Source: Candidatus Paraburkholderia calva
GTDB taxonomy: Bacteria > Pseudomonadota > Gammaproteobacteria > Burkholderiales > Burkholderiaceae
Direction: 5' to 3'
DNA: 34,962 nucleotides
Assembly (NCBI GenBank): GCA_001184395.1
Contig: LFLF01000027.1
Coordinates: forward strand, 1 to 34,962
The position numbers were made by a program, and so were the translations under genes. The notes below the pieces were generated by a model. That model did no database searches, was not told the origin of the DNA, and worked only from the letters and a program-made list of their open reading frames with translations. Of this stretch, positions 1,281-34,807 are shown piece after piece; positions within the stretch are counted from its first letter, which is position 1; the number at the start of each line of letters is the position of its first letter.

Positions 1281-2656
1281 CATGCTCCGCACCCTTCGCT
1301 CCCTCTCCGTCTTCACCGCGCGGCGTACGCGCAGCCTCTGGCGCCGTTACGGCATCTTCTGGCTCGGGGCGATCGCCGTCGGTCTCATCGCGGTGTATTA
1401 TGCGCGGCTCATCGACTGGGGCTTCGGCGTGTTCACCGACCTCCGGCAACAACACCCCTGGTCGCCGCGTCACGCCGGCCGCCGCCGCGCTCTGCGTGTT
1501 CGTCACGCGGACATTCTTCCGCGGCTCGGAAGGCAGCGGCATCCCGCAAGTGATCGCGGTGCTGCACAGTCCGACCACCGAAGCCGGCAGCCACCTGCTG
1601 ACCATGCGGATTCTACTGAGCAAGATCGCGGTATCGCTGGTCGCGATTCTCGGCGGCTTCACCATCGGACGCGAATGACCCACCGTGCAGGTCGGCGCCG
1701 CGCTGATGTTCAACATGCGGCGCTTCTTTCCGCGCTCGAATGCGCGCATCGAACGGCAACTCGTGCTGTCAGGCGCGGCGGCGGGACTGTCGGCCGCGTT
1801 CAACACACCGCTCGCCGGGATCGTGTTCGCGATCGAGGAACTCACGCGCAGCTTCGAGGTGCGGACCAGCGGTGTGCTGATCACCGGGATCATCATCGCG
1901 AGCATCGTCGCACTCGGCTTGCAGGGCAATTACACGTACTTCGGCGCCATCGACGTCGACACCCATTTTCCGCGGATGCTCGCGGTCGCCGTGGGCATGG
2001 CGACGGTCATCACCGGCATCGCGGACGGGATCTTCTGCTGGCTGCTGCTCAACACGTCCAAGTGGATTCCCGCGCCGCTGCGCGCACTGTACGGGTCGCG
2101 CCCGGTGGTCTTCGCGGTGATTTGCGGTTTCGTTATCGCGGCGGTGGGGCTGATTTCCGGCAATACGACTTTCGGCAGTGGCTACGTGGAAGCGCGCGGC
2201 CTGCTCGAAGGGCGCGAACGTCTGTAGATGTTTTATCCGCTGTTGAAAATGATGTCGATGATCGGCTCGTATCTGCCGGTATTCCGGGCAGAATTTTCGC
2301 GCCGTCGCTGTCGATCGGCGCGGGCTTCGGCAACGTGTTGCACACGATATTCACGCAGACGCCGCTGTCGATGCTGATCGCGCTCGCGATGGTCGGCTAT
2401 CTTGCCGCAGTGACGCAATCGCCGATCACGGCCTTCGTCATCGTGATGGAGATGATCAACGGTCACGCGCTCGTGATCTCTCTGATGGCGACCGGGCTGA
2501 TCTCGAGCCGCGTGTCGCGCCTGTTCGCGCGCCGCTGTACGAGGCGCTATCGGAGCGCTATATCGCGCGCGACCGCTGCCGGCGCCCTCGCCGGAGGTGC
2601 CGGACGCGGGCCCAGAGCAAGCGCGGGGCGATGGGGAAACCGCGCCGCGCGGCTGA
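1281..2656 (+). pseudogene. ClC-family chloride channel/antiporter, broken
   Basis: Pieces of a voltage-gated ClC protein appear in all three plus frames in the right order. The N-terminal region MLRTLRSLSVFTARR and first helix (about 1281-1450) are followed by a frameshift. TPAAAALCVFVTRTFFRGSE then leads to GGFTIGRE and a TGA at 1676-1678, in the same frame as the following TVQVGAALMF. GREGP is the anion selectivity motif, so the stop replaces its second Gly. LSAAFNTPLAGIVFAIEE follows, then another frameshift near 2270 before IFAPSLSIGAGFGNVLH. The C-terminal tail (LYEALSERYIARD, then PLPAPSPEVPDAGPEQ) changes frame again and ends at TGA 2654-2656. At least three frameshifts plus one nonsense codon make this a non-functional gene. 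Family membership is certain; substrate or subtype is unknown. Confidence 0.9.
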
Positions 2657-2775
2657 ATCATGCAGCGCGCCGCAAGCGTGCGCGAGACACCCGCAAACGT
2701 TTTCGTCGTCAGAAAAAACCGAAATTGAAGATTTGGATTCCGGCTTTTTTTAATGCAGTGAGAGAAGCGAACGGC

Positions 2776-2794
2776 CGCGCGGCCAAACCGCGCG
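2776..2794 (-). terminator. GC hairpin after minE, weak terminator candidate
   Basis: A perfect 7-bp inverted repeat (CGCGCGG, 5-base loop, CCGCGCG) lies about 20 bp past the minE stop on the minus strand. No T-run follows directly, so it may only pause RNA polymerase or act with Rho. An A/T-rich imperfect hairpin at about 2715-2752 could serve the plus strand. Confidence 0.35.
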
Positions 2795-2812
2795 AGCCGA
2801 GAGAAGGTCGAA

Positions 2813-3067
2813 CTATGCCTGCGGAATTTCGATCTTTACTTCCAGCACTTCGAGATCATCCTGACGTTCGAGGCTCACCCGAATGTCATCGTCGGAAATC
2901 TTTACGTACTTCGAAATCACGGCAACCAGTTCCCGTTGCAACGCCGGCAGATAATCGGCGGCGGCTTTGCCACCTGCGCGCTCGTGCGCAATGATCAGCT
3001 GCAAGCGTTCCTTCGCGACCGTAGCGGACTTTCTTTTCTCGCCCAGCAAAAACGAAAGAATCGACAT
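2813..3067 (-). CDS. minE: Cell division topological specificity factor MinE
   Basis: 84 residues, the usual MinE length. The N-terminus [20 protein letters not shown] is the membrane-targeting and MinD-binding part. [10 protein letters not shown] is the contact helix that stimulates the MinD ATPase. The C-terminal half (about 35-84, ending in [11 protein letters not shown]) is the dimerisation/topology domain. It works at the inner membrane, driving pole-to-pole MinD oscillation so that the MinC inhibitor is kept away from mid-cell. It is last in the minC-minD-minE operon, nine bases after the minD stop. The gene is intact and shows no odd features. Confidence 0.97.
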
Positions 3068-3076
3068 TGCATCCCC

Positions 3077-3892
3077 TTACTTGGTGCCGAAGATGCGTTG
3101 CAGCAGGCCCGGTTTCTGATAATCGGTAAAGCGCAGCGTTTTCTGCTCCCCGAGAAAGCGCGACACCACGTCCTTGTACGATTCGGCAACCGTGGTGCCG
3201 TCCAGATGCACCGCGGGCATGCCCTGATTCGACGCATGCAGCACGTCTTCCGACTCCGGAATCACGCCGATCAGTTCGGTGCGCAGAATCTCCTGGATGT
3301 CCGACAGCGACAGCATTTCGCCTTCGGACACGCGCTTCGGGTTGTAGCGCGTGATCAGAAGATGCTCCTTGATCGGGTCCTTGCCTTCCATTGCGCGCTT
3401 GGTCTTCGACGACAGGATGCCGAGAATGCGGTCTGAATCGCGTACCGACGACACTTCCGGATTCGTCACGATGAGCGCTTCGTCGGCGAAGTGCATGGCC
3501 ATCAGCGCGCCCGACTCGATACCCGCCGGCGAATCGCAAACGATGTATTTGAAGTCCATCTTGATCAGCTCGTTGATGACGTTCTCCACGCCTTCGAGCG
3601 TGAGCGCGTCTTTATCGCGCGTCTGCGAGGCCGGCAGGATGTAGAGGTTCTCGCACTTCTTGTCCTTGATGAGCGCCTGATTCAGGTTCGCCTCACCTTG
3701 GATAACGTTGATGAGGTCGTACACCACGCGACGCTCGCAACCCATGATGAGGTCGAGATTGCGCAGACCGACGTCGAAGTCGATCACGGCCGTCTTGTGG
3801 CCGCGCAATGCGAGCGCCGATGCAAAGCTCGCGCTGGTCGTCGTCTTGCCGACGCCGCCCTTTCCCGAAGTCACCACAATGATTTTTGCCAT
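3077..3892 (-). CDS. minD: Septum site-determining ATPase MinD
   Basis: 271 residues starting MAKIIVVTSGKGGVGKTTT. The deviant Walker A motif GKGGVGKT sits at about 10-17, and VCDSPAGIESGA is the Walker B region. The C-terminal GLLQRIFGTK is the amphipathic membrane-targeting helix. ATP-bound MinD binds the inner membrane, recruits MinC to block FtsZ rings near the poles and is released by MinE. ATG 3892 is chosen because the family begins exactly there. An in-frame ATG 60 bases further upstream would add an unrelated polar extension. It lies between minC and minE in the usual order and is intact. Confidence 0.97.
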   Translation of the reverse strand: MAKIIVVTSGKGGVGKTTTSASFASALALRGHKTAVIDFDVGLRNLDLIMGCERRVVYDLINVIQGEANLNQALIKDKKCENLYILPASQTRDKDALTLEGVENVINELIKMDFKYIVCDSPAGIESGALMAMHFADEALIVTNPEVSSVRDSDRILGILSSKTKRAMEGKDPIKEHLLITRYNPKRVSEGEMLSLSDIQEILRTELIGVIPESEDVLHASNQGMPAVHLDGTTVAESYKDVVSRFLGEQKTLRFTDYQKPGLLQRIFGTK

Positions 3893-3962
3893 ACAAGTAA
3901 CCTTGTGTTCGTCAATTAATCCGCTCGCGTCCGGCTGAGCGCGCCAGGGCATCGGCGCGGCT

Positions 3963-4748
3963 TCAGGTCAGACGCAGCGGTTCGACCATCAGTTTTTCTT
4001 CGTCCAGCCAGATCTGCACGGGCTTACTCGCGACTTCCGCAGGCAGCGGATTTTCGGTGGTCCGGTAAATGCCCGCGATGGAGACCAGTTCCGGCTCCAG
4101 GCACGTGCAGAAAATCCGCGCGTCGAGATTGCCGTGCACGCCCGCGAGCGCGCGGCCACGCAACGGCGCATAGATATGGATATTGCCTTCCGCGATCACT
4201 TCCGCGCCGTAGGACACGAGCCCGAGCACGATGAGATCGCCCTTCGCATACACCTGCTGGCCCGAGCGCAGCGGACGGTCGATGATGGTCGCCGGTTGCG
4301 GCATGGTGAGTGGCGGCGGCGTGCTGGCGACGGCGGCTTCTATCACCTTAGCGGCGTCGGAGTTCGGCTTTGCTTCGTCCAACGAAGGCTTCGGCGCGCC
4401 ACGACGGTTGCGCGCCTCGAGAATCGGCAGGCCACCTTCGTTCGCCCACTGGATCGCCCATGTCTGCGCGGGCAGCGCGCATACGCCGATGGGGTGCATA
4501 CGCACGCTCGTCAACAGCTTTTCCAGCTTCGCCAGCGACACATGCTTACCTTCGCCGCCAGCGGTGTTTTCAGCGAGCCGCCGCACGTCGATGGCAACGA
4601 CATCGCCCGCGAAGAATTCGGGTGTCGCTTCGAAGCGCCGCGTGAGTTCCGTGCGGAGTGCATCGAAGTCGGGAGTCTTGACGACGAAGAGAAGCGTGTC
4701 GACGGAGCCGCTGTGCAATTCGAAGAAGGGCGTTTTGTTGAGCGACAT
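3963..4748 (-). CDS. minC: Septum site-determining protein MinC
   Basis: 261 residues starting [20 protein letters not shown]. The N-terminal domain (about 1-105) inhibits FtsZ polymerisation. A Pro/Ala-rich linker (about 125-165) leads to the C-terminal beta-helix domain ([16 protein letters not shown] onward), which binds MinD and dimerises. The ORF is open 54 bases further upstream, but that extension is not family-like. Seventy bases separate its stop from the minD start. The first gene of the operon; no lesions seen. Confidence 0.96.
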
Positions 4749-4874
4749 AAGAAAACTGCCAAAAATTTTGCGTATTTTACAGGCGTACGCGCGCACGGCC
4801 ATAATTTTTCCGGCCGATTCCAGCTATCGAAAACGAGGAGTGCGCGTGATGCGCGATGAATGCGGCAGACGAAT

Positions 4875-5399
4875 TCAGGCGTCGCGATTGACCTGCATGT
4901 GACGCACGTAAAGGGCTTCGGCTTCCACCTCGTTGGCGGGCATCGCGCGTCGGTCGCCGGTGGGACCGAAGCCGAGACGTTCGTAGAAACGCATCGCGGT
5001 GCGGTTTTCTTCCGCGATCCACGCATGCACTTCGGATGCGCTCTGTTCCGCGAGCCATTGCGACGCGACGTTCACGAGCAATTCCCCGCCACGCAGATGA
5101 CGCACCGCCGGTGCGACCCACAGCGCGTTGACGAAGGCGCGCGCGTAATCGCCGTCTTCGATGTACGCGTGCACGAGGCCGCACGGATGGCCTTCGGTGT
5201 ACAGCAGGAAGGTCGCGAGCTGCGGCGATTGCGCGTGCAGCGCGGCGGTTTCGTCGAACGATGCGGGATCGACGAGCAGTGCATCGGCCAGGGTCTCGCC
5301 GAATGCATAGGGCGCTTCGCGTAGCGATGCCGTGCGCAGTTCGCGAAGCACCGAACCCTGTTGCGCGACGATACGGCTGACGGTCAATGAAGGACTCAT
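4875..5399 (-). CDS. GNAT-family N-acetyltransferase
   Basis: 174 residues. The GNAT fold is visible: VNALWVAPAVRHLRGGELL carries the beta4 strand and the acetyl-CoA pyrophosphate loop, here RHLRGG where R/Q-x-x-G-x-A/G is usual. HAWIAEENRTAMRFYERLGF is the typical C-terminal beta5-alpha4 segment. The enzyme should transfer acetyl from acetyl-CoA to an amine; the substrate is unknown. It is transcribed in the same direction as minC, with about 125 bp between them, so cotranscription is possible but not shown. The family call is firm, the role open. Confidence 0.85.
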   Translation of the reverse strand: MSPSLTVSRIVAQQGSVLRELRTASLREAPYAFGETLADALLVDPASFDETAALHAQSPQLATFLLYTEGHPCGLVHAYIEDGDYARAFVNALWVAPAVRHLRGGELLVNVASQWLAEQSASEVHAWIAEENRTAMRFYERLGFGPTGDRRAMPANEVEAEALYVRHMQVNRDA

Positions 5400-5618: not shown

Positions 5619-6395
5619 TCACGGGACTGCATACGGGCCGGTGCCGTCCGGCCAGAGCGTCAGCAACTCGAAGCCGTCGTCGGTGACCGCGACCATGTGC
5701 TCCCACTGCGTGGACAGCGAGCGGTCCTTCGTCGTGACGGTCTAGCCGTCGCGGGATTGCTGCGTGGCCGTGCGGCCCCGCGTTGATCATCGGTTCGATG
5801 ATGAAGACAAGGCCGTGCTTGAGGCGCAGGCCCGCGCCGCGTTGGCCGTAATGCAGCACCTGCGGATCTTCGTGATAAACACGCCCGATGCCGTGTCCGC
5901 AGTACTCGCGCACGACGGAAAAGCCTTCGCGATGCGCGACCGCCTGGATCGCCGCGCCGATGTCGCCAAGCGGGCGCCGAGCTTCACCTCGCGGATGCCC
6001 GCCACCATCGCCTTGTAAGTCGTCGCGACGAGGCGTTGCGCTTCCTTATTCGGCGTGCCGCCGTGATACATGCGGCTGGTGTCGCCGAAGTAGCTGTCCT
6101 TGATGATCGCGATGTTGATGATGTCGCCGTCCTTCAGTTCCTTCGGCCCCGGAATGCCGTGACACACGACATGATTCACGGAGGCGCAGATCGTCTTCGG
6201 AAAACCCATGTAGCCGACGTTCGCCGGCACGGCCTTCAATTCGTTGACGATGAAGCGATTGCAGATGGCGTCGAGTTCGTTGGTAGTGACGCCGGGGCGC
6301 ACGTGGTCGGCGATCATCGCGAGGACTTCGGCGACCATGCGGCCGGAGATGCGTAACTTCTCGATGTCGGCGGGTGACTTGAGCGTGATGGCCAT
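5619..6395 (-). pseudogene. map: Type I methionine aminopeptidase, broken
   Basis: The N-terminal part (MAITLKSPADIEKLRISGRM to VKLGARL) is in one frame. From about 5950 the family sequence continues in another frame (REYCGHGIGRVYHEDPQVLH, then IIEPMINAG). A second shift near 5755 restores TQWEHMVAVTDDGFELLTLW in a third frame, ending at TGA 5619-5621. Independently, the metal site is damaged. The family has GDIINID followed by about ten residues to GDTSRM, but here the text is GDIINIAIIKDSYFGDTSRM. The first metal-binding Asp (D97 in E. coli) and two residues are missing. The His of NHVVCHGIPG and the second Asp remain. Map is essential, so I infer that another intact copy exists elsewhere, as is usual in Burkholderia. 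Confidence 0.9.
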
Positions 6396-7401: not shown

Positions 7402-8089
7402 TTGTACCTAGGCAACTACCTCGTCAGCCTCAACGGCGACCCAGCACTCGGTACCATTTTCCACAGTGACATAGGCGAACTATTTTTTGCTGCTCACCGG
7501 TCCGCGTGCCGAGGGCGAACAGGACGGGCCGAAGCATATGTACTTCGTGCTCGTCGATGGCGGGCGCACCGGGCTCATCGGCGGCGAGTTTCAGGAGATG
7601 CTGCGCTGCATCCGGTGCTGCGGTGCATGAATCATTGTCCGGTGTATTAGAAGATCGGTGGGCATGCGTATGGCTAGGTCTATCCCGGGCCGATAGGCTC
7701 GGTGCTGACGCCGGCGTAGTCGGTATCGACAAGGCGCTCGATCTGCCGCAGGCCGCGACCTTGTGCGGCGAATGCAATAGCGTGTGCCCGGTCGGCATTC
7801 CCTTGTCCGATCTGTTGCGCAAGCTGCGCGAGAAACAAACGAAGCGACGTCTGCGCCCATGGACGGAACGCGCGGCGCTCGCGGCATGGGCTATCTGGCG
7901 ATGCGGCCTACGGCCTATGCGCTCTTCACCAAGCTTGTGGTCCGCGCGATGGAGCGCATGGGCGGCAACCGGAAGACGATCTCGCGCTTGCCGATGGGCG
8001 CGGGCTGGACCGGCACACGAGACATGCCCGCGCCGGTGGGGCGGACGTTTCGCGAGCTGTACAAGGCGCAAGGCTCGCATCTGGGTTGA
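7402..8089 (+). pseudogene. lutB: LutB (YkgF) iron-sulfur lactate-oxidation subunit, C-terminal relic
   Basis: Scattered over three frames are the segments RAEGEQDGPKHMYFVLVDGG, GEFQEMLRCIRC, CMNHCPVY, GSVLTP, LPQAATLCGECNSVCPVGIP and SRLPMGAGWTGTRDMPAPVG, in the order of the LutB C-terminal half with its two 4Fe-4S Cys clusters. Lesions: a frameshift inside the first Cys motif, TAG at 7648-7650 (Gln expected), TAG at 7675-7677 (Trp expected), a lost base at about 7717 and further shifts near 7890. The N-terminal half and the lutA and lutC partners are absent, so the L-lactate oxidation operon is gone here. The left boundary is uncertain. The open stretch 7309-7480 in the same frame as the CMNHCPVY segment is not clearly LutB. 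Confidence 0.85.
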
Positions 8090-8150: not shown

Positions 8151-8166
8151 GATGCCGTGATTCGCG

Positions 8167-9235: not shown

Positions 9236-10435
9236 TTACTTCAGCACGGCTGCGACCGCATTCGCGACGGCGTCGATGTTGCGCGTATTGAGTGCGGCCA
9301 CGCAGATGCGGCCGGTGCTCATGGCGTAGATGCCGAATTCGTCGCGCAGACGGTCGATCTGCGCCGACGTCAGGCCCGAGTACGAGAACATGCCGCGCTG
9401 CTTGCTGACGAACGAGAAGTCGCGATCGACGCCGTTCGCCGCCAGCTGCTCGACGATACCCAAACGCATGGCGCGGATACGGTTGCGCATTTCGCCGAGT
9501 TCCTGTTCCCACATCGTGCGCAGTTCCGGCGACGCTAGCACGGCCGCTACGATGGAACCGCCGTGCGTCGGCGGGTTCGAGTAATTGGTGCGAATCACGC
9601 GCTTGAGTTGCGACAGCACGCGCGTCGATTCTTCCTTATTGGTCGTGGTGATCGACAGCGCGCCGACGCGCTCGCCGTACAGCGAGAACGACTTCGAGAA
9701 CGACGACGAAACGAACACGTTCATGTCGGTCGCCGCGAACAGGCGTACGGCGGCCGAGTCAGCCTCGATGTTTTCCGCAAAGCCCTGATACGCCATGTCG
9801 AGGAACGGCACGAGATTGCGTGCCTTCACGACTTCGGCGATCTGCTTCCATTGCGCATCCGACAGATCGACGCCGGTCGGGTTGTGGCAACAGGCGTGCA
9901 GCACGATGATCGTGCTGGCCGCGTAGCCGTTCAGCGCGGTGATCAGCGCGTCGAAGTTCACGCCACGGGTCGCGGCGTCGTAGTACGGATAGTTCACTAC
10001 CTCAAAGCCCGCGCCTTCGAACAGCGCGCGATGGTTTTCCCAGCTCGGATCGCTGATGGCGACCTTCGCGTTCGGATTGATGCGCTTCAGGAAGTCCGCG
10101 CCGATCTTCAGCGCGCCTGTGCCGCCCAGCGCCTGCGCCGTGACGACGCGGCCCGCCGCGATCAGCGGCGATTCGCGGCCGAGCAACAGCGTCTGCACGG
10201 TGGAGTTGTAGGTGGCGATGCCGTCGATCGGCAGATAGCCGCGCGGCAGGGCCGCATCGACGCGTGCTTTCTCAGCCTCGCGCACGGCGCGCAGGAGCGG
10301 AATCTTGCCTTCTTCGTTCGTGTAGACACCCACGCCAAGATTGACCTTAGTGGCGCGCGTATCGGCGTTGAAGGCTTCGTTCAGGCCCAGAATCGGGTCG
10401 CGGGGAGCGAGTTCGACGGCAGAGAAAAGAGACAT
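9236..10435 (-). CDS. tyrB: Aromatic-amino-acid/aspartate aminotransferase
   Basis: 399 residues, the usual length of class I PLP aminotransferases of the AspC/TyrB group. SFSKSFSLYGERVGAL holds the PLP Schiff-base lysine, Lys248. HACCHNPTGVD carries the conserved Asn-Pro-Thr-Gly, PFLDMAYQGFA the Asp/Tyr that contact the cofactor, and TGRICVAALN the substrate-carboxylate Arg. It moves the amino group between glutamate and phenylpyruvate, hydroxyphenylpyruvate or oxaloacetate in the cytosol; TyrB versus AspC preference cannot be fixed from sequence alone. It is divergent from uvrB and apparently monocistronic. No lesion is present. Confidence 0.93.
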   Translation of the reverse strand: MSLFSAVELAPRDPILGLNEAFNADTRATKVNLGVGVYTNEEGKIPLLRAVREAEKARVDAALPRGYLPIDGIATYNSTVQTLLLGRESPLIAAGRVVTAQALGGTGALKIGADFLKRINPNAKVAISDPSWENHRALFEGAGFEVVNYPYYDAATRGVNFDALITALNGYAASTIIVLHACCHNPTGVDLSDAQWKQIAEVVKARNLVPFLDMAYQGFAENIEADSAAVRLFAATDMNVFVSSSFSKSFSLYGERVGALSITTTNKEESTRVLSQLKRVIRTNYSNPPTHGGSIVAAVLASPELRTMWEQELGEMRNRIRAMRLGIVEQLAANGVDRDFSFVSKQRGMFSYSGLTSAQIDRLRDEFGIYAMSTGRICVAALNTRNIDAVANAVAAVLK

Positions 10436-10840
10436 GATCTATCGGCGGTGAAGGAAAGACGAGCGGCGGGAATGCGCAACTATACTGCGATACTGCGCAA
10501 AGGCACGGCGACGGGTTCGGGAAGGGTCCGGAAGAGAACGACTTTCCGCCATCATGGCGCAGTCCCTCATTGTAGCGAATCCGGCGGCCCTTATAGGACG
10601 GGTGAGGACGATATGGTGCGAATGCGCGTGCTTTTCGGCCCTAATTAGCTCTTGGACGTTGGATTTCGAGCCAAAACGGGGTGTTACCATGTTTGCTTGA
10701 GTTCGCCCGCGCAGCCCCAATTTGACACCTCGAAAAGCTCAATCGTGCACCCCGAAATATGCCGCCGCGACGGCGAGCGCGCATCCTGCATCAGCCGCTA
10801 GAATGGGTGTTTGCCTGCGGCGGCGACAACTCGATCTCCC
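10436..10840. other. Divergent tyrB/uvrB intergenic region
   Basis: About 405 bp separating divergent starts. TATAGT on the minus strand (10479-10484) is a plausible -10 for tyrB, and TAGAAT (10799-10804) a plausible -10 for uvrB; neither has a good -35 at normal spacing. TTGACA at 10722-10727 is isolated. I see no convincing LexA operator, although uvrB is SOS-controlled in E. coli. No gene is supported in this stretch. Confidence 0.45.
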
Positions 10841-12949
<2,109 letters not shown>

Positions 12950-22549: not shown

Positions 22550-22568
22550 AATGAGAATTATTATCATT
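22550..22568 (-). promoter_or_regulatory. Fur box upstream of bfd
   Basis: AATGAGAATTATTATCATT differs from the 19-bp consensus AATGATAATCATTATCATT at two positions, one of them the central base. It lies 24 bases upstream of the bfd start, where Fur-Fe(II) would block RNA polymerase. Bfd is a classic iron-starvation gene, so site and gene agree. Confidence 0.85.
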
Positions 22569-22717
22569 CAATATAGTCGCCTTTGCAAGCGGGTACTGTG
22601 TTTTTTGTAACACGTAACACATCAGGGAGATGCGTGAGCTTTTTGCTTGGAGCCTTGCCTGGCAAGGGTTTTCAGGCGGAAGATGCGTTCGCTGAAGTGA
22701 GAAACCCTCAGGCGATG

Positions 22718-23593
22718 TCAGGTTCCGGAACGCTCGTGTGGTGAAGGGATGACGACGTGCTCGACGGGCGTGTCGAGCTGCAGCAGCGAGGCGGCGAGTT
22801 GGCGTTGCGGACCGCCATCGGCGGTGGAGCAGAAGCGCGGCATCGCAGCCGGATCGGGCGATGCATCGTTCTGGAGGCCGCCCGCTTCGAGCAGCCGTTC
22901 GAGCTGACGTGCGATGGCGACGCTCGTATCGACGATCTGCAGCCGTTCGCCGGCGATATCGCGGATCGCGCGATCGAGGAACGGGTAGTGCGTGCAGCCG
23001 AGCACGAGCGTGTCGGCGCCGGCGTCGAGCATCGGCGCGAGATAGCTTTCCAGCAGTGCCATGAGTTGCGACGACGACGTATCGCAGCGTTCGACCGCCT
23101 GAACCAGCCCGTGTCCCGGCTGGCAGAGGAAGTGGCAATCGCTCGCGTGACGATCGAGCAGCGTCTGGAAACGCGCGGAGCGCAATGTTACCTGCGTGGC
23201 CAGCACGCCGACCACGCGCGATCTGGATATCGTCGCCGCTGGTTTCACGCCCGGCTCGACGCCGACCAGTGGGATGGCATGCAGTTCGCGCACGCGCGCG
23301 ATCGACTGGGCGGTAGCCGTGTTGCACGCGACGACCAGTGCCTTCGCGCCTTGCGCGGCGAGCCAGCCGCAAATGGCCACGGTGCGATCGACGATGAAAT
23401 CGTCGTCTTTCTCGCCGTAGGGCGCGTAGAGGGAGTCGGCGACGTAGATGAGCCGTTCGCGCGGCAGCACCGCGCGCACGGCGCGCAACATCGACAAACC
23501 GCCCAGACCGGAATCGAAGATGCCGACCGGCGCGTTCGCACAGGCATCGGCGCGCAGGGTCGGATTTAGCAGGGAGACAGCGTCAGCAGACAT
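22718..23593 (-). CDS. murI: Glutamate racemase MurI
   Basis: 291 residues. The two catalytic cysteines are Cys90 in VVACNTATA and Cys200 in VLGCTHYPFL. VGIFDSGLGGLSMLRAV and YVADSLYAPYGEK are the conserved N-terminal substrate-binding motifs. It makes D-glutamate from L-glutamate for peptidoglycan, without a cofactor, in the cytosol. It lies 15 bp downstream of bfr, so a bfr-murI unit is likely, an arrangement I recall from other Burkholderiaceae. Intact, as expected for an essential enzyme. Confidence 0.95.
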   Translation of the reverse strand: MSADAVSLLNPTLRADACANAPVGIFDSGLGGLSMLRAVRAVLPRERLIYVADSLYAPYGEKDDDFIVDRTVAICGWLAAQGAKALVVACNTATAQSIARVRELHAIPLVGVEPGVKPAATISRSRVVGVLATQVTLRSARFQTLLDRHASDCHFLCQPGHGLVQAVERCDTSSSQLMALLESYLAPMLDAGADTLVLGCTHYPFLDRAIRDIAGERLQIVDTSVAIARQLERLLEAGGLQNDASPDPAAMPRFCSTADGGPQRQLAASLLQLDTPVEHVVIPSPHERSGT

Positions 23594-23607
23594 TCAAAGC
23601 AGAAGAA

Positions 23608-24084
23608 TTACTCGTCTTCGGCCATCACAATCTGTTGGTAGTTCTGGATGCCAACCTTCTTGATCAGATCCAGTTGCGTTTCGAGCCAGTCGATATGCTC
23701 TTCGGTGTCGTCGAGGATCTTCTCGAAGATTTCGCGCGACACGTAATCACGCACCGACTCGCAATACGCGATGGCTTCCTTGCAGGTCGCCTGGGAAATC
23801 TGCTCGAGCTTCAGGTCGCAGCCGAGGATTTCTTCGGTCTCTTCGCCGATCAGCAGCTTGTGCAGATCCTGCAGGTTGGGCAGGCCATCGAGCATGAACA
23901 CGCGCTCGATGATCCAGTCGGCATGCTTCATTTCGTCGATCGACTCGCCGTACTCATGCTTGCCGAGCTTTTCCAGGCCCCAATGCTTGTACATCCGGGC
24001 GTGCAGGAAGTACTGGTTGATCGCGGTCAGTTCGTTTTTCAACTGTGCGTTCAGATATTCGATGACTTTCGCGTCGCCTTGCAT
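23608..24084 (-). CDS. bfr: Bacterioferritin
   Basis: 158 residues starting [20 protein letters not shown]. By direct count Glu18, Glu51, His54, Glu94 and His130 line up with the E. coli ferroxidase ligands. Met52 in DEMKHADW is the haem ligand. Position 127, Glu in E. coli, is Thr here ([11 protein letters not shown]), with Glu at 128 and 129. This may be normal for the lineage. The 24-subunit shell stores iron as ferric mineral; Bfd, encoded nearby, drives release. ATG 24084 fits the family start; the upstream 21 codons do not. Intact. Confidence 0.95.
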
Positions 24085-24218
24085 GATTGTTCCTGTTTTG
24101 TGACGTAGTGCTATTACAAAGATAAACCTTGAGCGTGACAAAGCCAAGGTTGAGAAGAAAACTTTTCGAAGTGGACAAAACTGAGAATGAAAACCGCTCT
24201 CAACTAGTGGTGCCGCAA

Positions 24219-24264: not shown

Positions 24265-25839
24265 TTAAAAACTGCCGTTCAGCACCAGCTTTATGCAGCC
24301 TTCATGCGACCGTGACCGGATGTCCTGCACGTCGAACTCGTAGATGGCCTCCATGCTGAGGTCTTGGAACGCAAGCACCTTCGCTTCGCGGATCGCCTTA
24401 GACACGAGATACGCCGCGCCGCCCACGGCCATCAGATACGCGGCCTTGTAATAATTCTTGATCGCCTCGATGGCGACCGGGCTGCGCTCGGCCCTGCCGA
24501 TTATCGAGATCAGCCCGGTTTGCGCGAGCATCATTTCGGTGAACTTGTCCATGCGCGTGGCCGTGGTCGGGCCTGCCGGGCCGACTGCTTCGTCGCGCAC
24601 CGGATCGACCGGGCCGACGTAATAGATCACGCGGTTGGTGAAGTCCACCGGAAGCTTATCGTCGCGGGCGAGCATGTCGGCGATGCGCTTGTGCGCGGCG
24701 TCGCGGCCCGTGAGCATCTTGCCCGACAGGAGCAGCGTCTGGCCCGGCTTCCACGAGGCGACTTCTTCCGACGTCAACGTGTTCAGGTCGACACGCTTGC
24801 TGGTTTCCGTGTTCGGCTGCCACGTGACATCCGGCCATGCGTCGAGCGAAGGCGCTTCCAGTTTGGCGACGCCCGAGCCGTCGAGCGTGAAGTGCGCGTG
24901 GCGCGTCGCCGCGCAGTTCGGGATGGTGGCGATGGGCTTGGACGCGGCGTGCGGCGGCGCGGCCATGATCTTCACGTCTAGCACGGTTGCGAGGCCGCCG
25001 AGGCCCTGCGCACCGATGCCGAGCGCATTCACCTTCTCGTGCAGTTCCACGCGCAGTTCTTCGATCCAGTCCTGCGGCCCGCGAGCGATGATGTCCTGAA
25101 TGCCGATCGGGTTCATCAGCGATTCCTTCGCCATGACCATCGCCTTTTCCGCCGTGCCACCGATGCCGAGCATGCCCGGCGGGCACCAGTCCGCGCCCAT
25201 CGTCGGAACGGTTTTCAGCACCCAGTCCACGATGGAATCGGACGGATTCAGCATCGCGAACTTCGACTTGTTTTCCGAGCCGCCGCCCTTGGCCGCCTGC
25301 GCTTGCTGTTGCCACGGCGGCACGAAGGATTCGTCATGAAAATGCCGCGGATGCGTATGCGTGGTCAGCCGGTCGACATACGCCATGATCAGCGCGGATA
25401 CGAGGAACGCGACGTGGATGATCACCTGCCACAAAATCGTGGGAAGGTGTGCTGGTCCGGGTTGATGAAGGTCTTCAGCAGATGGATCGACGAAATGCTG
25501 ATGAGCGCCATCGACAGCTTCACTTTCAGTACGCCCGCATTGACGTGATCGAGCCATTCCGGTTCGTCCGGATGGTCCTCGACGCCCAGCCCGCGACACG
25601 AACGTCTCGTAGCCGCCGACGATCACCATGATCAGCAGATTCAAGATCGTGACCACGTCGATCAAGCCGAGCACGACCAGCATGATGTTGGTTTCGTCCA
25701 GCGTCATGGCATGGGTGACGAAGTGCCAGACTTCCTTCAGAAACAGCACCACGTACACGCCTTGCGCGACGATCGGGCCGAGGTAGAGCGGCACCTGGAG
25801 CCAGCGGCTCATGAAGATGATTCGCGGCAGCGCTTTCAT
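24265..25839 (-). pseudogene. Chimera: UPF0114 (YqhA-like) membrane protein fused to class I fumarase C-part
   Basis: One open frame of 524 codons joins two unrelated genes. Codons from 25839 read MKALPRIIFMSRWLQVPLYL, then FLKEVWHFVTHAMTLDETNI and VDRLTTHTHPRHFHDESFVP, a UPF0114/YqhA inner-membrane protein. Inside it an extra base (about 25591) and a lost base (about 25442) put some 50 residues, including one helix, out of frame before the frame returns. At about 25297 the text passes directly into KGGGSENKSKFAMLNPSDSI, deep inside class I fumarase, and continues almost to its end. The fumarase N-terminal part with the first 4Fe-4S Cys (CQDTG region) is deleted. Later Cys in DWCPPGMLG and PNCAATRH remain. 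GMLGIGGT lacks two residues of the usual GMLGIGIGGT, and the C-terminus shifts after EFDVQD. Neither half can be functional in its family role. Confidence 0.85.
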
Positions 25840-26110
25840 CGGGCCGGCGCGAGCGGACCAGCGGACGATGCGGAAGTGTGCTTGGGAGCGGACATGGGCG
25901 GCGTGTCGGTTCGGGCGAATCGAAAATGATGACGGTCGACTGTGACGAAACGAGCGGCGCGTGGGCACGCGTCCGTCGCCGGACACGGACAGGCGCTGAA
26001 GGCCCGCAGGCTGCGGATTCGCTCGGGTAAACACAATATTGTAGCATATCGGTCCCTGAATCCGCCCAAACCAAACCTTTCGGAATGCGCTGAGGAATGA
26101 TCCGGCCGTC

Positions 26111-26896
26111 TCAGAGTCCGCGTTCATTCGATACCGCCGCCGGCCGCGCTTTCAGGCTCGCCAGTCCGATTCCGGCCACCACGCAGGCCAGCGCGACGCC
26201 GTGCGCGAGCGTCGGCCGTTCGCCTACGAACGCGATGCCGTGAATCGCCGTCGCGATCGGCAATACGGCGCAGAACACGCCCGCGAGACTGCCGTCCACA
26301 TGCCGGATGCCTTTCATCCACAGCTAGAACGAGAAGATGCTTGCCGACAGGCCGTACCAGAGCACGAGCGCCCACGTGCCCGCGGCAACGCTGCTCCAGT
26401 CGAAGCCGATCAACGACGACGCGCCGAGCGGCAGCATAAGCACGAGTCCGATGCCGTGCGTGTAGGCGCAGATGTCGATGGCCGGCAGCGTCTGGGTGAG
26501 ACGGCGCGAGAGGATCACGTAAAACGACTCGCAACACTCGGCGCCCAGCACCATCAGGTTGCCGGAGAGCGAACCGGGGTCCGCGTCGCCGCTTTGCGCG
26601 ACGTTGATGACGAGCACGCTCGCGCCCGCGCTGGTGCGCGCCACGCCGTTGAGCATCAGCAGCGTGAAGCCGAAGGTGCCGAAGAACGCTTGCAGAAACA
26701 GATTGATCCACTCACCGTGACGACGCGCTTCATCTTCGATGGACGGAACAGTGGCCACGGCACCGCCAGCGCGATCACGAAACGCAGCAGCGCGAACAAG
26801 CGGCACGGGCACGGAAGCGACAATGGACTTGCCGATGCCGATGTTACTTCCGACGAGCAGCATGGCCGCGATGAGAAGAAGGGCGTAACGATTCAA
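26111..26896 (-). pseudogene. EamA/DMT-family exporter, broken
   Basis: MNRYALLLIAAMLLVGSNIG is the first helix. After VASVPVP an extra T shifts the frame for about 35 residues; the other frame reads LFALLRFVIALAVPWPLFRP. The correct frame returns at EWINLFLQAFFGTFGFTLLM. The segment between SAGASV and SGDADPGSLSGN is shorter than usual, indicating an internal deletion. TAG at 26324-26326 replaces a Trp in SIFSFWLWMKGIRHV. The tail HGIAFVGERPTLAHGVALAC finishes at 26111. The family normally has ten helices in two EamA repeats and exports metabolites; substrate unknown. Confidence 0.88.
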
Positions 26897-27076: not shown

Positions 27077-27354
27077 GCCGCGCGATGACCAGCGTGAACA
27101 GGTCGCTGTGACACCGCTTGTTCCATTCCACATATAGGCGCACCGGAGGCACACCAGAGGCACAGTCAAGTAATGCATCCGACCGAGGCGGGCGCCACGT
27201 GCCAGCCACGGCGGCACAACGGAGACAAGGTTCGGCCGGGAACGCCTCTCGCTTCTCGCCCTCGAATCTCAAACATGCGGTGCGCCCGACCCTCTCAGGC
27301 GGCGTGCGTGCCGCCGGATCTGGAATCACCATAGAGACCATAGAGAGGTTGTCG

Positions 27355-29337
27355 ATGTTTGCGATCGAATCGGTTCTTCACGAAAAACGCGTGTTCCCGC
27401 CGTCGGAAAAAGCCATGGCGGGCACGGCCATTTCCGGCATGGACGCTTACCAGGCGCTCGCCCAGCAAGCCGAACGAGATTACGAAGGCTTCTGGGCCGG
27501 CCTTGCGCGCGAGATGCTCATCTGGCGCAAGCCCTTCACCAAGGTGCTCGACGAATCGAAGGCGCCTTTCTATAAGTGGTTCGAGGACGGCGAGCTGAAC
27601 GCGTCATACAACTGCCTCGACCTTCACGTGGAAGCGGGCCGCGGCAACGACAACGCGATCATCTTCGAATCCGACGACGGCACCGTTACCAACGTCACGT
27701 ATCAGGACCTGCTCGAGCGCGTGTCGCGCCTCGCCAATGCGCTCAAGAAGCGCGGCGCGAAGAAGGGCAATCGCGTCGTCATCTACATGCCGATGTCGGT
27801 CGAAGGAGTGGTAGCCATGCAGGCGTGCGTGCGGATCGGCGTCACGCATTCGGTCGTGTTCGGCGGCTTCTCGTCGAAGTCGCTCAACGAGCGCCTGGTC
27901 GACGTCGGCGCGGTCGCGCTGATCACCGCAGACGAGCAGATGCGCGGCGGCAAGCTGCTGCCGCTTAAGAGCATCGCCGATGAAGCGCTCGCCGCCGGCG
28001 GCTGCGAGAACGTGAAGAACGTCATCGTCTACAAGCGCACGGGCGGCAAGGTCGCGTGGACCGAAGGCCGCGACGAGTGGATGCAGGAGATCGTCGCGGA
28101 CGAATCGCCCGCCTGCGAGCCGGAATGGGTCGGCGCGGAGCATCCGCTGTTCATCCTCTACACGTCGGGTTCGACCGGCAAGCCGAAAGGCGTGCAGCAC
28201 AGCACGGCGGGCATTTTGCTGTGGGCCGCGCAGACCATGAAGTGGACCTTCGACATGAAGGCGGGCGACATCTTCTGGTGCACGGCGGATATCGGCTGGA
28301 TCACGGGACATAGCTATATCGCGTACGGGCCGCTCGCCATCGGCGCCACGCAGGTCATGTTCGAAGGCGTGCCGACCTACCCGAACGCGGGCCGCTTCTG
28401 GGAGATGATCCAGCGGCACAAGGTCACGGTGTTCTACACCGCGCCGACGGCAATCCGCTCGCTGATCAAGGCGTCGGAAGCGGATGCGAAAGTGCATCCG
28501 AAGAGCTACGACCTGTCCACCTTGCGCATCCTCGGCACGGTCGGTGAACCGATCAATCCCGAAGCGTGGATGTGGTATCACGAGAACGTCGGCGGCGGGA
28601 AGTGCCCGATCGTCGATACGTGGTGGCAGACCGAAACCGGTGGCCACATGATCACGCCGCTGCCGGGCGCGACGCCGCTCGTGCCGGGCTCATGCACGCT
28701 ACCGCTGCCGGGCATCATAGCCGCCATCGTCGACGAAACCGGTCAGGACGTGCCGAACGGGCAGGGCGGCATTCTGGTCGTCAAGCGGCCGTGGCCGTCG
28801 ATGCTGCGTAACGTGTGGGGCGACCCGAAGCGCTATCAGACCAGCTACTTTCCCGAGGAGCTCGGCGGCAAGCTGTACCTCGCCGGCGACGGCGCGGTGC
28901 GCGACAAGGACACCGGCTACTTCAGCATCATGGGCCGGATCGACGACGTGCTGAATGTGTCCGGTCACCGTCTCGGCACGATGGAAATCGAATCGGCGCT
29001 GGTGGCGAATTCGATGGTCGCGGAAGCTGCCGTCGTCGGCCGTCCGGACGACACCATGGGCGAGGCCGTGGTCGCGTTCGTCGTGCTCAAGCGTGCGCGT
29101 CCGGAAGGTGGCGAAGCCAAGCAGATCGCAACGGAACTGCGCAATTGGATCGGCAAGGAAATCGGTCCGATCGCCAAGCTCAAGGACATTCGCTTCGGCG
29201 AGAATCTGCCGAAGACGCGTTCGGGCAAGATCATGCGCCGCCTGCTGCGCTCGCTCGCGAAGGGCGAAGAGATCACGCAAGACGTGTCCACGCTTGAGAA
29301 TCCCGCCATCCTCGACCAACTCGGCGAAGCGCGTTAA
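27355..29337 (+). CDS. acs: Acetyl-CoA synthetase (AMP-forming)
   Basis: 660 residues. [18 protein letters not shown] (about 269-286) is the ATP-binding P-loop and [16 protein letters not shown] (423-438) the core adenylation motif. [20 protein letters not shown] is the hinge and CoA region. [11 protein letters not shown] carries Lys625, the lysine acetylated by Pat-type enzymes. It makes acetyl-CoA from acetate, ATP and CoA through acetyl-AMP in the cytosol. ATG 27355 ([20 protein letters not shown]) matches the usual start and follows GAGAGG; the ORF is open 237 bases upstream, but that stretch does not look coding. The gene is intact, whereas its likely uptake partner downstream is destroyed. 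Confidence 0.95.
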
Positions 29338-29424
29338 GCCTGTCACGACCGCCGCTCGTTCTTCCGGTCGAGCGCGGCGGTCTATCCGTATTGCCTGCGT
29401 CGTGCGGTTTTGTTAAAAAGCCGC

Positions 29425-29602
29425 ATGTCCGATTCCGCCAACACGACTCTTCCCGCGCCGCCCGTCTCGGCGGCGATGGCGCGCGCATCGCCGCTACTGG
29501 CGCTTCAATGTCGCGTTGATCGTCGTGTATATCGTGCTGATGCAGATCACCTATGCGCGTCTTCTGCGTGCCGCCCGCTCGGACGCGCGCAACGCGGCAT
29601 GA
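29425..29602 (+). pseudogene. DUF4212 small subunit of a sodium-solute symporter, truncated
   Basis: MSDSANTTLPAPPVSAAMAR is the family N-terminus. After a one-base shift the text reads HRRYWRFNVALIVVYIVLMQ and ends ITYARLLRAARSDARNAA, with TGA 29600-29602. The normal protein has a long middle part with the first two helices between the FNVALI and VVYIVLMQ segments. Here they are joined directly, so about 50 residues were deleted, probably by recombination between similar Ile/Val-coding stretches. The stop overlaps the ATG of the symporter gene as ATGA, showing the original operon. Confidence 0.8.
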
Positions 29603-31566
29603 AGCTCACGAACCGGCTCATTCTCTCGTACGCGCTTTATACGCTCGGCTTTCTGCTGTTCATCTTCCTGATGGAGCGCATCGAGCGCGCGACCGGGCCG
29701 GGCATGTGGATCGGTTACGTGTTTCTTTTTGTACCGATCGTGGTCTATGCGGTGATCGGCCTCTTGTCGCGCACCTCCGATCTCGTCGAGTACTATGTTG
29801 CCGGCAGACGTGTGCCGTCGGCGTTCAACGGCATGGCGATGGCGGCAGACTGGTTGTCGGCGGCATCGTTCATCGGCCTTGCGGGGTCGATCTACGCGAG
29901 CGGCTACGACGGCCTCGCCTACGTGATGGGCTGGACCGGCGGCTATTGCCCTCGTCGCGTTCCTGCTCGCGCCTTACGTGCGCAAGCTCGCGCGCTACAC
30001 GATTCCCGATTTTCTCGGCACGCGCTTTTCCAGCAATCTCGTGCGCGGGCTCGCGGCCATCGCCGCGATTTTGTGCTCGTTCGTCTATCTGGTCGTGCAG
30101 ATTCAGGGCATCGGGCTGATCGCGTCGCGCTTCATCGGCATCGAGTTTTCAATCGGCATCTTCTGTGGGCTGGCGGGCATTCTCGTGTGTTCGTTTCTCG
30201 GCGGCATGCGCACGGTGACGTGAACGCAGGTCGCGGCGCAGTACATCATCCTGATTGCGGCGATGCTGATTCCCGTGTCGATGATCGCGCATCGAGAAGG
30301 GCTCGGCTGGCTGCCGCAACTGAACTATGGCGGTTTGATGGAGCGCGTGGAGAAGCGCGAATGCGAGGTCGCCGTTTCGCCCGACGAAGCACGCGTGCGC
30401 GCTGACTACGAGCGTCAGGCGTCGCGGATGCAGCAGCGCATCGACGCATTGCCGCAGTCGTTTCACGACGAGCACGCGCGTCTGGTCGGGGAAATCGCCG
30501 ACCTGCGCCGCCACAATGGGCCGCTGTGCGAAATCGATGCCCGCGAACGCGATGCGCTGACCGACCGTGTGGCGGCCCCCATGCCGATGACCGAGGCGTT
30601 CGCGCCCGGCTCCTCGGGCGACGAGACGCCGCGCACGCACCAACTGAATTTCCTGTCGCTCCTGCTGTGTTTGTCGATCGGCACCGCGAGCCTGCCGCAC
30701 ATCCTCACGCGCTACAACACGACGACGTCGGTGGCGTCGGCGCGGCGCTCGGTCGGCTGGACGCTGTTCTTCGTCGCCCTGTTCTATCTGACGATGCTGG
30801 CGGTGCTCATCAAGCACGAGATATTGACCGGGCTCGTCGGCCATCGATTCGCGGATTTGCCGCAATGGGTCACACAGTGGCGGCGCGTGGAGCCGTATCT
30901 GATCCGCATCAGCGATGTGAACGGCGACGGCGTCGTCCGCTGGGCGGGTATCCGATGCAGCCGGACATGGTGGTGCTCGCGGCTCCCGAGATCGCGGATC
31001 TGCCTTACGTGATATCCGGGCTGATCACGGCGGGAGCGCTGGCCGCCGCGCTCTCGACGGCCGATGGCCTGTTGCTGACCATCGCCAACGCCCTGTCGCA
31101 CGATGTCTATTACTGCATGGTGGACCGCCGCGCGACGAATCAGCGGCGCGTGACCATCTCCTCGAAGATTCTGCTGCTCGGCGTGGGCGCTGCTGGTGTC
31201 GTATGTCGCTTCGCTCAATACCGGGAACATTCTGTTTCTGGTGAGCGCGGCGTTTTCATTGGCGGCGTCGAGTCTGTTCCCTGCGCTGGTACTCGGCGTG
31301 TTCTGGAAGCGCACCACGCAGCGCGGCGTGGTTGCGGGTCTGGCCTATGTATTTATTACATCGTGTCGACGTATCCGTTTTTCATGCAACTGACGGGTTT
31401 CGCCGGGCCGCGCTAGTTCGGCATCGAGCCGATCGGTTCGGGCGTGTTCGGCATACCGGCGGGCTTTGCGGTGGCGATCGTGGTGAGCCTGCTGGACCGC
31501 AAGCCGGATGCGTACACGCGCGCACTGGTCGATTACATTGTCATCCTTAAGTCACAGAAACGGTAG
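29599..31566 (+). pseudogene. Sodium:solute symporter (ActP/VC2705-like), broken
   Basis: The start MKLTNRLILSYALYTLGFLL and EYYVAGRRVPSAFNGMAMAA are in frame. An extra T at about 29946 shifts to LVAFLLAPYVRKLARYTIPD. TGA at 30221-30223 replaces Trp in the RTVTWTQVAAQYIIL region. LCLSIGTASLPHILTRYNTT follows in the same frame. Further shifts near 30953, 31190 and 31350 carry DMVVLAAPEIADLPYVISGL, SYVASLNTGNILFLVSAAFS and YIVSTYPFFMQLTGFAGPR. A TAG at 31414-31416 stands where Trp is expected before FGIEPIGSG. With DUF4212 this family takes up acetate-like solutes with sodium. Four frameshifts and two nonsense codons leave no functional permease. Confidence 0.92.
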
Positions 31567-31591: not shown

Positions 31592-31602
31592 CATAACCGT
31601 CC

Positions 31603-31692
31603 GGAGAGATGGATGAGTGGTTTAAGTCGCACGCCTGGAAAGCGTGTATAGGGTAAAACTTATCGGGGGTTCGAATCCCCCTCTCTCCGCCA
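31603..31692 (+). tRNA. tRNA-Ser (anticodon GGA)
   Basis: A class II tRNA. Acceptor GGAGAGA (31603-31609) pairs with TCTCTCC (31682-31688), discriminator G, CCA encoded. The D-arm is GATGAGTGGTTTAAGTC. The anticodon stem CACGC/GCGTG surrounds loop CTGGAAA, with GGA at 31637-31639, reading UCC and UCU. A long variable arm (about 31648-31664), as expected for Ser, is followed by the T arm GGGGGTTCGAATCCCCC. All stems are intact. Confidence 0.97.
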
Positions 31693-31938
31693 GAATAACG
31701 TCAAGAATCAAGCACTTAGTTATCTTACGGTGCAATTTATTATTTGGCTGTTTTTTGTCTATTTTCTTCTCCGAATCGCACGACATTCGCGGCACGTTCG
31801 CATTGAATTTGGTCACTGCCTGTAAATGCGCTTGTCCTTGCCTCTTTATGCGAGCAAGTATCGTAAATGCCGCGAGTATGATTCCGCTCGATGCTAACAA
31901 CACGCTCGCCGCGTCGACACTGAAGGGGTAACTCTCAC

Positions 31939-34807
31939 CTAAATCAACGACTGTCGCGCTGCCAACAGAACAGCCTTCAACTCGGCATTGTCGGCGGGCT
32001 TGGGCAAGTGCCCGTCAAACGAGGCAGCGAGCGTCTGCTGCCGATCTACATCCTGCCCACGGCCAGTCGATCATCCGCATTGGCGGCTGCACCGGCAAAT
32101 CGCTGCGCAAACGTCGCGCGACCTCGAATCCGTCCATTCCAAGCATGGCCAAATCGAGAAGAACCAGATCTGGTCTGCGACGATGCGCGCTTTCCAACGC
32201 CTGCTTGCCTTGCCGCCATAGGCTGCCTCGGTGTCGTGGCCATCCAGCCACAGTAGTTCGGCCAGCGCGTCGGCGCCATCGCTTCTGTCGTCCACGTCCA
32301 CCACGAGCACCCGCAAGGGCCGGCCTGAAAAGGCCGATTTCACCTCGGCGACATCGGATAGATTGATCGCCGTATCGAACACCGTTATCGGCAGACGCAC
32401 GGCGAATGCGCTCCCTCGGCCCGTTCTTCCTTCGCTGGCCGCAGTGACGCTGCCACCATGCATCTCGACGAGCTGCTTGACTAGCGAGAGCGCGATGCCC
32501 AATCCGCCCGCCGAATACGCCTGCTAATCGCGGACCTGCGCGAAGAGATCAAACACGCGGTGCAGCGAAGCATGTGGGAATGCCGATCCCGGTGTCGCTG
32601 ACTTCGATCAACGCATGCTCACTCTCCCGAGCAATGCGCACCGTGATACAGCCGCCGGCATCCATGTACTTGGTGGTATTGGACAGCAGGTTGGACACCA
32701 CTTGGGTTAGTTGAACCGCATCGCCTCGTACGGCTAGTCCTGAGTCAGTTTCATCAATGACGGTCATCCGATGGCTCTTGCGTTCGGCTTCAGGACGACA
32801 GGCATCGAGCACCAGATTCACTACGTCGCGCGGCTTCACGAGTTCGGCGTTGAGTTTGATCTTGCCGGTAGCGATGCGGGCAACGTCAAGCAAATCGTCG
32901 ACGAGATGGACGAAATGTGAAGTTGACGGTCGCTGCGGGCGAACAGTTCCTTCGTCAACGCCGCATGTCCGATCGGCTGTTGCCGATCTTGTAGACGAGT
33001 AGCGCCAGACCGTTGCGCAGTTCGTGCGCCAATACAGCAAGGAACTGATCTTTGCGACAGTCGGCGTCATGCAGCGCAGCCTCGGCGCGAGCACGCTCCA
33101 TCGCGGCCCAGGTTCTTTCGGCCGCTTCCTCCAGGAGACGGAGTTCTTCGCGCGTCCATGCTCTCGGTCACGTTGTCGCAACCACCAAAGCCCAGACGTA
33201 ATTGCGCTCGCCGCGTCGCAATGGGGTCACGAGTAACGCGCCGATCCGCATCGCAAGTAGTGAGCATCTGTTGATGTTCGAAAGCGCGGCCTCGCACGCG
33301 ATGTCTGAATAAAACAGGGGCTGTGTTCCCATCCGGGACATCGAATCTGGAAAGTTCTGTAAGCGCGATATTCCCCTTCCACCGACAGCAGATCATGGCG
33401 CCGGTATTCGAACTCGGCCCAGCTTCTCTCAACGTCGCGCGACAATCGCACGATGTAGCAACGGTCCACGCCCAATTGCTCGCCGAACAGCCGCGTGGCC
33501 ACGCGCCCGATGGTGTCGGGCCGCAACTCGACCCGCAAGACATCACTGAGCCTCAACAAAAAGACTGCCTCTCTTCCTGCTCGCGCAGCGTCTGCTCGGC
33601 GCGCTTTCTTTCGGTGATGTCGTTGAAGACGAAAGAGTTGTAAATTCCTGCGCGCGCCTACCGGCGAGACGAACGCCGTGTACCAACGGCCAATCTGCTC
33701 GACCTGATACTCCATGCGAGTAGCCTTGCCCGAGAAAGCGACCGCCGCAAACCGGTCCAGCCATCCCTCCATGCGCGGAAAGATTTCGGACACCCGCTTG
33801 CCTACGACATTGTCGAGCCGGTCTGCCGTTGATAGGCGTTGTTGACCTCGAGCATGACAAAGTCGATGGCCTTGCCGTTGTCGTCCAGGATCATCTGGAT
33901 CGTGCAGAATCCCTCGTCTATCGAGTTGAAGAGGAGCCGGAACTTCCTGTCACTCTCGCGCTTGGCGTCCTCGGTGGAGATGCACTGTGTGATGTTGCTT
34001 GCCGATCCGAACCATTCCCTGATTTCACCGTCTGGTCCGAGCAGCGGCACGGCACGCGAGAGCACCCAGCCCACGGCATCGTCGGCCAGTTCGAACAGCG
34101 ACTTGTCGCGGATGGCCGCGTCAATGGCGTGGCGTACCGCGGGCAGGTCGTCGTGAATGTACTTCCTTACCCAGTCCTCGATAGGCGCTGCGGTGTTGGC
34201 GAGGGTTTGGCTGTCCAGTTGAAACATGAGCCGCCAGTCCCGGCTCATGCGGTAGATCGAGTTGCCACCTGGTGTTACCAGCGCGCGGAACCTCGCTTCG
34301 TTCAGCTGCAATTGCGCATTGGTTGCATCGCGCTCGCGTTCGGCTTGCCCGGCACGATGCCTGGCTGTCGCATCGACCGTCACGTTCAGCAATCCGGCGA
34401 CGGCGCCCGACTTGTCCCGCATCGGCAAGTATGAGAAGTTCCACCACGTGTCCTCTGCGAAGCTGTGCTGGTGCATCACGAGCGGCATGTCGCCGAAGGT
34501 GACCGTTTCGCCAGCGAAGACTTGCTCCACCAATGGCTCGATGTCCTGCCAGATATCGGGCCACGCCTCACTGAAGGGAATGCCGAGCGCGCACGGGTGA
34601 TGATCTCTCAGCATCGGGACGTAGGCATCGTTGTACAGGACGATTTTCCGGGGTCCCCAATTGCATGGCGTGTCCTGATGCCAGGATCAGATCGACAGCG
34701 CTTTTTAAGCTAAACGGCCATTGCTCGATGGGACCGAGTGGCGTTGCTGCCCAGTCCCGCGCGCGAATGAGGCGAGACATCTCGCCGTTACTATGCGGCC
34801 AATCCAT
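31939..34807 (-). pseudogene. Hybrid PAS-GAF sensor histidine kinase with receiver domain, broken
   Basis: In order from 34807: SRLIRARDWAATPLGPIEQW (start of a PAS-type input domain), then after a shift ALGIPFSEAWPDIWQDIEPL and the PAS segment with DDAVGWVLSRAVPLLGPDGE. A third PAS region follows (EGWLDRFAAVAFSGKATRME), then a GAF-like part (RVATRLFGEQLGVDRCYIVR). The H-box QFLAVLAHELRNGLALL still carries the phospho-accepting His (33024-33026). The ATPase part is VVSNLLSNTTKYMDAGGCIT, EVSDTGIGIP and [18 protein letters not shown]. The receiver [20 protein letters not shown] has the phosphoryl-accepting Asp. Every few hundred bases the frame changes, and TAG (32524-32526) interrupts before the last ATPase motif. 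At least six lesions; clearly dead. Confidence 0.9.

Follow-up and report, generated by a model that had tools for sequence, protein, structure and literature searches.

The window analysed here is a 34,962 nt stretch of DNA that forms a whole contig (C181) of a 4,198,526 nt assembly (301 contigs, 99.05% complete; genome G000), and its nearest relatives by sequence comparison are members of the genus Caballeronia. It very probably stems from a Caballeronia symbiont of leaf nodules whose genome is eroding; the best fit is Candidatus Burkholderia calva UZHbot6, known from Psychotria, and the bacterium would live in leaf nodules and be transmitted vertically. Of the 31 Pfam-named genes of the window, 16 are open and 14 are broken where they stand, and tonB is absent from its site, so that many pseudogenes of recent appearance stand amid intact core genes. 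The sequence shows TonB-dependent uptake of ferric siderophores to be broken or fragmentary in its receptors, its TonB-ExbB-ExbD energiser and its FecCD permease, and beside this broken machinery FtrABCD appears to be kept as a simpler iron pump. A first-pass annotation, made from the raw sequence, had guessed at an early-stage reductive, host-associated, Burkholderia-like genome. Tested against controls, that guess is supported, the broken genes being nearly as constrained as the open ones. The annotation had missed the loss of tonB, and the losses are now seen to take in the TonB system as a set.

Genes were assessed by aligning Pfam-named proteins of relatives to the window DNA with a frame-aware protein-to-DNA script. 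The alignment was rerun with trimmed references and eight other genomes, and lesions were counted inside 4–95% of gene length. The census was made without three open reading frames (ORFs) that lack a Pfam match, P7 (126 amino acids, no lesion), P9 (86 amino acids) and P16 (180 amino acids), and a fumA_C row was removed as a duplicate. The broken loci are as follows.

1132..2648, plus strand: clc (Voltage_CLC) pseudogene, with stops at 1676 and 2225 and several frameshifts
5621..6395, minus strand: map (type I methionyl aminopeptidase) pseudogene, with a stop at 5744 and two frameshifts
7475..8087, plus strand: 3' remnant of lutB (codons ~266–470), with stops at 7648 and 7675 and three frameshifts
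18148..18612, minus strand: osmC pseudogene, two frameshifts
18685..19554, minus strand: pirin pseudogene, a single frameshift at about codon 50 of 290
19731..20695, plus strand: lysR pseudogene, a single frameshift at about codon 196 of 320
20977..21403, minus strand: exbD pseudogene, three frameshifts
21424..22088, minus strand: exbB pseudogene, first ~32 codons missing, one frameshift
22086..22088, no strand: junction between exbB and bfd at which ~1 kb including tonB is missing relative to relatives
24304..25944, minus strand: UPF0114 and fumA remnants, run together, with the first ~147 fumA codons lost
26113..26896, minus strand: eamA pseudogene, with a stop at 26324, two frameshifts and a 37-codon deletion
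29374..31548, plus strand: DUF4212 and SSF sodium:solute symporter pseudogenes, from the frame-aware alignment
31941..34837, minus strand: hybrid histidine kinase pseudogene (PAS/GAF/HisKA/HATPase/response regulator), aligned to the G023 reference alone

Twelve of the 13 items that the first-pass annotation had listed as broken are confirmed by this alignment. The thirteenth, an 'hbpS-like' gene, is not confirmed, as the ORFs tested from ~8090–9230, of the window and its relatives, matched nothing in Pfam or NCBIfam. In pirin, two upstream stops seen in the first alignment were artefacts of an over-long reference and disappeared after trimming, as did N-terminal lesions of the GNAT gene and of ftrA. 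A second copy of map, on contig C111, is open and shares 58% identity with the query. The window keeps only the last ~206 of the 470 codons of lutB; the 5' part of the gene lies on contig C266 (L203, 4611), with an overlap of ~5 bases, as after an insertion. The end of fumA is altered, and UPF0114 has three frameshifts against the trimmed reference. A 620 amino acid ORF that runs across both remnants (24265–26127, minus strand) is read as a chance fusion; ORF finders would pass it as an intact gene, so that counting pseudogenes by ORFs alone may give too few. In the symporter locus, 75 of the 135 DUF4212 codons could be aligned, while the SSF gene has stops at 30221 and 31414, several frameshifts and a 20-codon deletion. 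The hybrid kinase, compared with one reference at 78% identity, has stops at 33170, 32524 and elsewhere and about eight frameshifts.

Intact copies of these genes are the rule in related larger genomes. Five relatives of 5.5–9.2 Mb (G001, G011, G012, G014 and G023), presumed to be free-living or facultative, gave one broken gene in 149 checks. Three presumed symbionts carry lesions of their own: 3 of 30 checks were broken in G015 (the one in map lying near the 3' end), 4 of 14 in G003, and 3 of 17 in G018, the last being the count after removal of an acs match to a distant paralogue (30% identity). In the 18 genes compared, no stop or frameshift position in conserved parts is shared between the window and G015, G018 or G003, and the losses therefore look parallel. 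The lutB gene is broken in the window, in G018 and in G003, each time differently, and is open in G015. Since the split from G015, the ratio of nonsynonymous to synonymous changes, from single-change codons only, is 0.071 for the open and 0.098 for the broken genes; the corresponding values for these gene sets on the G015 branch are 0.042 and 0.046. Counting the omitted multi-change codons (43 in open and 160 in broken genes, part of the latter being misalignment at frameshifts) as nonsynonymous raises the window values to about 0.09 and 0.19. Whichever way these codons are counted, most of the branch has passed under constraint, and because the broken genes show only slight relaxation, the breaks look recent.

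The iron genes of the window combine the broken exbB and exbD and the missing tonB with one complete system.

13310..16581, plus strand: ftrABCD, an iron transporter that works without TonB, each of its four genes open

These four adjacent genes specify, in order, Iron_transport, cupredoxin, FTR1 and Fer4_5 domains, and their nonsynonymous to synonymous ratios are low (0.06–0.18). FtrABCD is described in PMC5681537 as a siderophore-independent iron system, and iron import by it in this organism is a likely role, given the open genes. In the genome as a whole, the six matches to the receptor barrel (PF00593, 436 positions) are all fragments, none covering more than 176 positions; of 45 such matches in the five larger-genome relatives, 44 span at least 380 positions. 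The single FecCD match carries a stop. A frameshifted counterpart of tonB lies on C266 (L203 6896–7715), flanked by lipB-like and argininosuccinate-lyase-like genes; the right junction shows an overlap of ~3 bases. Its neighbours there include lipA/lipB-like genes, and C266 also carries the front of lutB that the window lacks.

The TonB_C domain and FtrC were surveyed in 58 Caballeronia genomes, 11 of them at or below 5.2 Mb. A full TonB_C match (from about position 2–4 to 77–79; G000 covers 2–63 only) is missing in six of the 11 small genomes (G000, G003, G018, G047, G051 and G066) and present in all 47 larger ones (Fisher p = 1.1e-5, with the size limit chosen after viewing the table and kinship ignored). 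G003 is 60% complete, and absence there is weak evidence. FtrC was found in 56 of the 58 genomes and in five of the six without full TonB_C. In G018 a contig spans the site, with ~11 kb from exbD to the symporter, including tonB-exbB-exbD, replaced by 1.3 kb (C11, ~51329–52628). G003 has a broken exbB and a stop early in exbD. Eight of the ten small many-contig genomes, and likewise G015, have no stop-free FecCD match of at least 290 of 311 positions; G051 and G066 have one each. G071 has 17 FecCD and 15 receptor matches, nearly all of them short, and its iron history differs.

A tree built from uvrB, ftrA–D and hemP joins the window with G015 (support 100), a genome in which tonB is retained; G018 and G003 form a separate clade (97) inside a group of larger-genome species (99). 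On this topology TonB was lost at least twice, separately. The loss is not universal: three of the six presumed leaf symbionts (G015, G043 and G056) keep TonB, judged by a full TonB_C match, which is missing in the other three (G000, G018 and G051). It is plausible, if still tentative, that Caballeronia of leaf nodules have abandoned TonB-dependent uptake of iron from siderophores and haem several times over, in independent events, and then depend on the TonB-independent FtrABCD. If so, the nodule would offer directly usable iron, and dropping siderophore traffic would be a parallel, not universal, step toward plant-inherited symbiosis. The loss of the TonB module as a by-product of general shrinkage, without meaning for the pathway, is also a real possibility: smaller genomes lose more of everything, and five of the 11 small genomes keep a TonB_C match. 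Against a mere by-product, receptors, energiser and permease are all degraded here, and FtrC is retained in nearly all of the genomes without full TonB_C.

Evidence from the rest of the genome bears on the nature of the decay. At 4.2 Mb, the genome is smaller than 48 of the 57 other genus members (5.1–10.3 Mb), the remaining nine being of 2.4–5.1 Mb with many contigs, and repeats at the ends of the window are common to several contigs.

1..232, no strand: repeat at the left contig end, recurring at the ends of other contigs in this genome
34825..34962, no strand: repeat at the right contig end, with copies at other contig ends

The right-end repeat matches the margin of a gene for a DDE_Tnp_1/DUF772 transposase in G006. 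Open coding sequence covers 0.68 of the window, 0.67 of other contigs of at least 9 kb (128 kb) and 0.52 of shorter contigs (41 kb), compared with 0.73–0.91 in the larger-genome relatives; this is an indirect measure of erosion, from a sample of ~4% of the genome in which contigs C266 and C76 were picked for tonB, and it used a model trained on stretches of G001, G011 and G023. By this measure, erosion is genome-wide and not local to the window. Ordinary strain-level decay or mutator activity, unconnected with host restriction, could produce each lesion taken by itself, and the host is deduced from data outside the window. Such decay is improbable, however, as an account of the whole, given the nearly lesion-free copies of the same genes in the five relatives, the low coding cover of other contigs and the separate lesions of G015, G018 and G003.

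The open genes, among them all those that the first-pass annotation had named as open (minCDE, tyrB, uvrB, ftrABCD, hemP, bfd, murI, bfr and acs), are borne out by alignment. Apart from ftrABCD they are as follows.

2813..4802, minus strand: minE, minD and minC, open and conserved
4875..5399, minus strand: GNAT acetyltransferase, open
9236..10435, minus strand: tyrB-like aminotransferase, open
10811..12949, plus strand: uvrB, open
17205..17474, minus strand: hemP, open
17624..18112, minus strand: AtaL-domain gene, open
22284..24147, minus strand: bfd, glutamate racemase and bfr, open (the racemase has a single frameshift, at codon ~283 of 293, beyond the 4–95% limits)
27118..29337, plus strand: acs (acetyl-CoA synthetase), open

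The distribution of lesions between these genes and the broken ones was simulated in 20,000 trials, each of which scattered 47 lesions randomly across 29 genes (26.5 kb); lutB was entered with five lesions (raw count 9) and the 206 codons that the window contains. The 47 lesions observed fall in 13 genes and leave 16 genes (13,155 bases) without any, while lesion-free coding DNA in the simulations averaged 4,604 bases, with a maximum of 10,080, and never reached the observed value. Errors of sequencing or assembly could be suspected in a draft of 301 contigs with rearranged junctions at 7114–7476 and 22086. Uniform error, however, would also strike uvrB, acs, ftrABCD, tyrB and minCDE, and no trial was as clean as the window. 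Of the 38 frameshifts, just 3 are close to runs of at least four equal bases (8%, against a background of 5%), and the larger-genome relatives, several of them drafts, are almost free of breaks. Uniform sequencing error is rejected on the clustering of lesions and the rarity of frameshifts at base runs, in agreement with the earlier remark that the stops are unlike sequencing errors, and error of any kind is a very improbable source of the breaks. Reading-through or reassignment of stops in functional genes, suggested by the share of TAG (11 of 15) and of tryptophan positions (5 of 15) among in-frame stops, has next to no probability and is rejected, since TAG, TGA and TAA all terminate open genes here (3, 5 and 6 of 14) and the 38 frameshifts, for which no genetic code accounts, outnumber the stops.

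Ten of these 15 counted stops are solid, two others lying outside the part of lutB that is present, two in inserted kinase codons and one at the kinase start. All seven in-frame stops quoted earlier (1676, 7648, 7675, 26324, 30221, 31414 and 32524) are present, and four of them (7675, 26324, 30221 and 31414) do face tryptophan. The single G-to-A changes proposed for these four call for no special process if G:C-to-A:T transitions dominate, as tryptophan codons in the relatives' copies provide 148 of 295 such routes to a stop (13% of all single-base routes).

Erosion in a leaf-nodule symbiont, with loss of TonB-dependent uptake, remains the preferred reading, and several observations weigh against it. 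The lesions are read from the assembled sequence, and drift under host restriction is a cause that we infer. The one broken check among the larger-genome relatives is itself tonB, a frameshift call in G012, and the presumed leaf symbionts G015 (0.86), G003 (0.79) and G018 (0.75) are not set apart by coding cover. Five of the ten other small genomes (G043, G056, G065, G068 and G071) keep full TonB_C, and two small genomes, G047 and G071, have no FtrC match. Finally, this genome has an open second ExbB-like ORF (C79) and an open TolQ-like gene (C133), so that part of the energising function may persist.

In host-restricted bacteria, gene decay is driven by relaxed selection and small populations. 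In the symbiont proposed here, a protected nodule and small inherited populations would free genes needed in free life from selection, and stops, small indels, deletions and rearrangements would accumulate and drift to fixation, while core genes stay intact, as they do in the window. Iron would then most likely enter by FtrABCD, which needs no TonB, as suggested by its open genes and by what is published on its function. The list of broken genes thereby becomes a testable claim about a pathway, namely the route by which a plant-inherited symbiont goes on obtaining iron while it grows bound to its host. With breaks that look recent, this genome also lends itself to studying the order in which functions vanish.

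Two further features of the contig may be recorded. The order of blocks switches at 7114–7476, the left side corresponding to ~735 kb and the right side to ~1,091 kb on a G001 chromosome, with ~360 bases between the two rearranged blocks. A match to the Burkholderia small RNA BTH_s39 (Rfam RF02692, 99.3 bits) lies at 17040–17169 on the minus strand, adjoining hemP.

Candidatus Burkholderia kirkii carries many pseudogenes and insertion sequence copies. It and related leaf-nodule symbionts of Psychotria are likewise Caballeronia, of reduced genome size and with fragmented assemblies, and there is no categorical difference between them and the present genome. Leaf-nodule symbiont genomes of 2.4–6.2 Mb are called consistent with reductive evolution in PMC4896955, and PMC7186400 describes them as largely reduced. 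Genome erosion in this symbiont group is thus already published and the kind of event is known; what this analysis adds is the contrast between TonB and FtrABCD, which can be tested. In a search for iron-related literature on leaf-nodule symbionts, which did not take in the two primary genome papers, TonB loss was not a subject among the matches listed, and no priority is claimed for it. The recently host-restricted endosymbionts Sodalis and Mycetohabitans have many pseudogenes, as here, and PMC12696581 describes recently host-restricted bacteria as rich in them; their hosts are an insect or a fungus, whereas the host in the present case is probably a plant leaf. The FtrABCD of the window has the same four-gene, four-domain set as the known system, and in this genome it may be the main remaining high-affinity route for iron.

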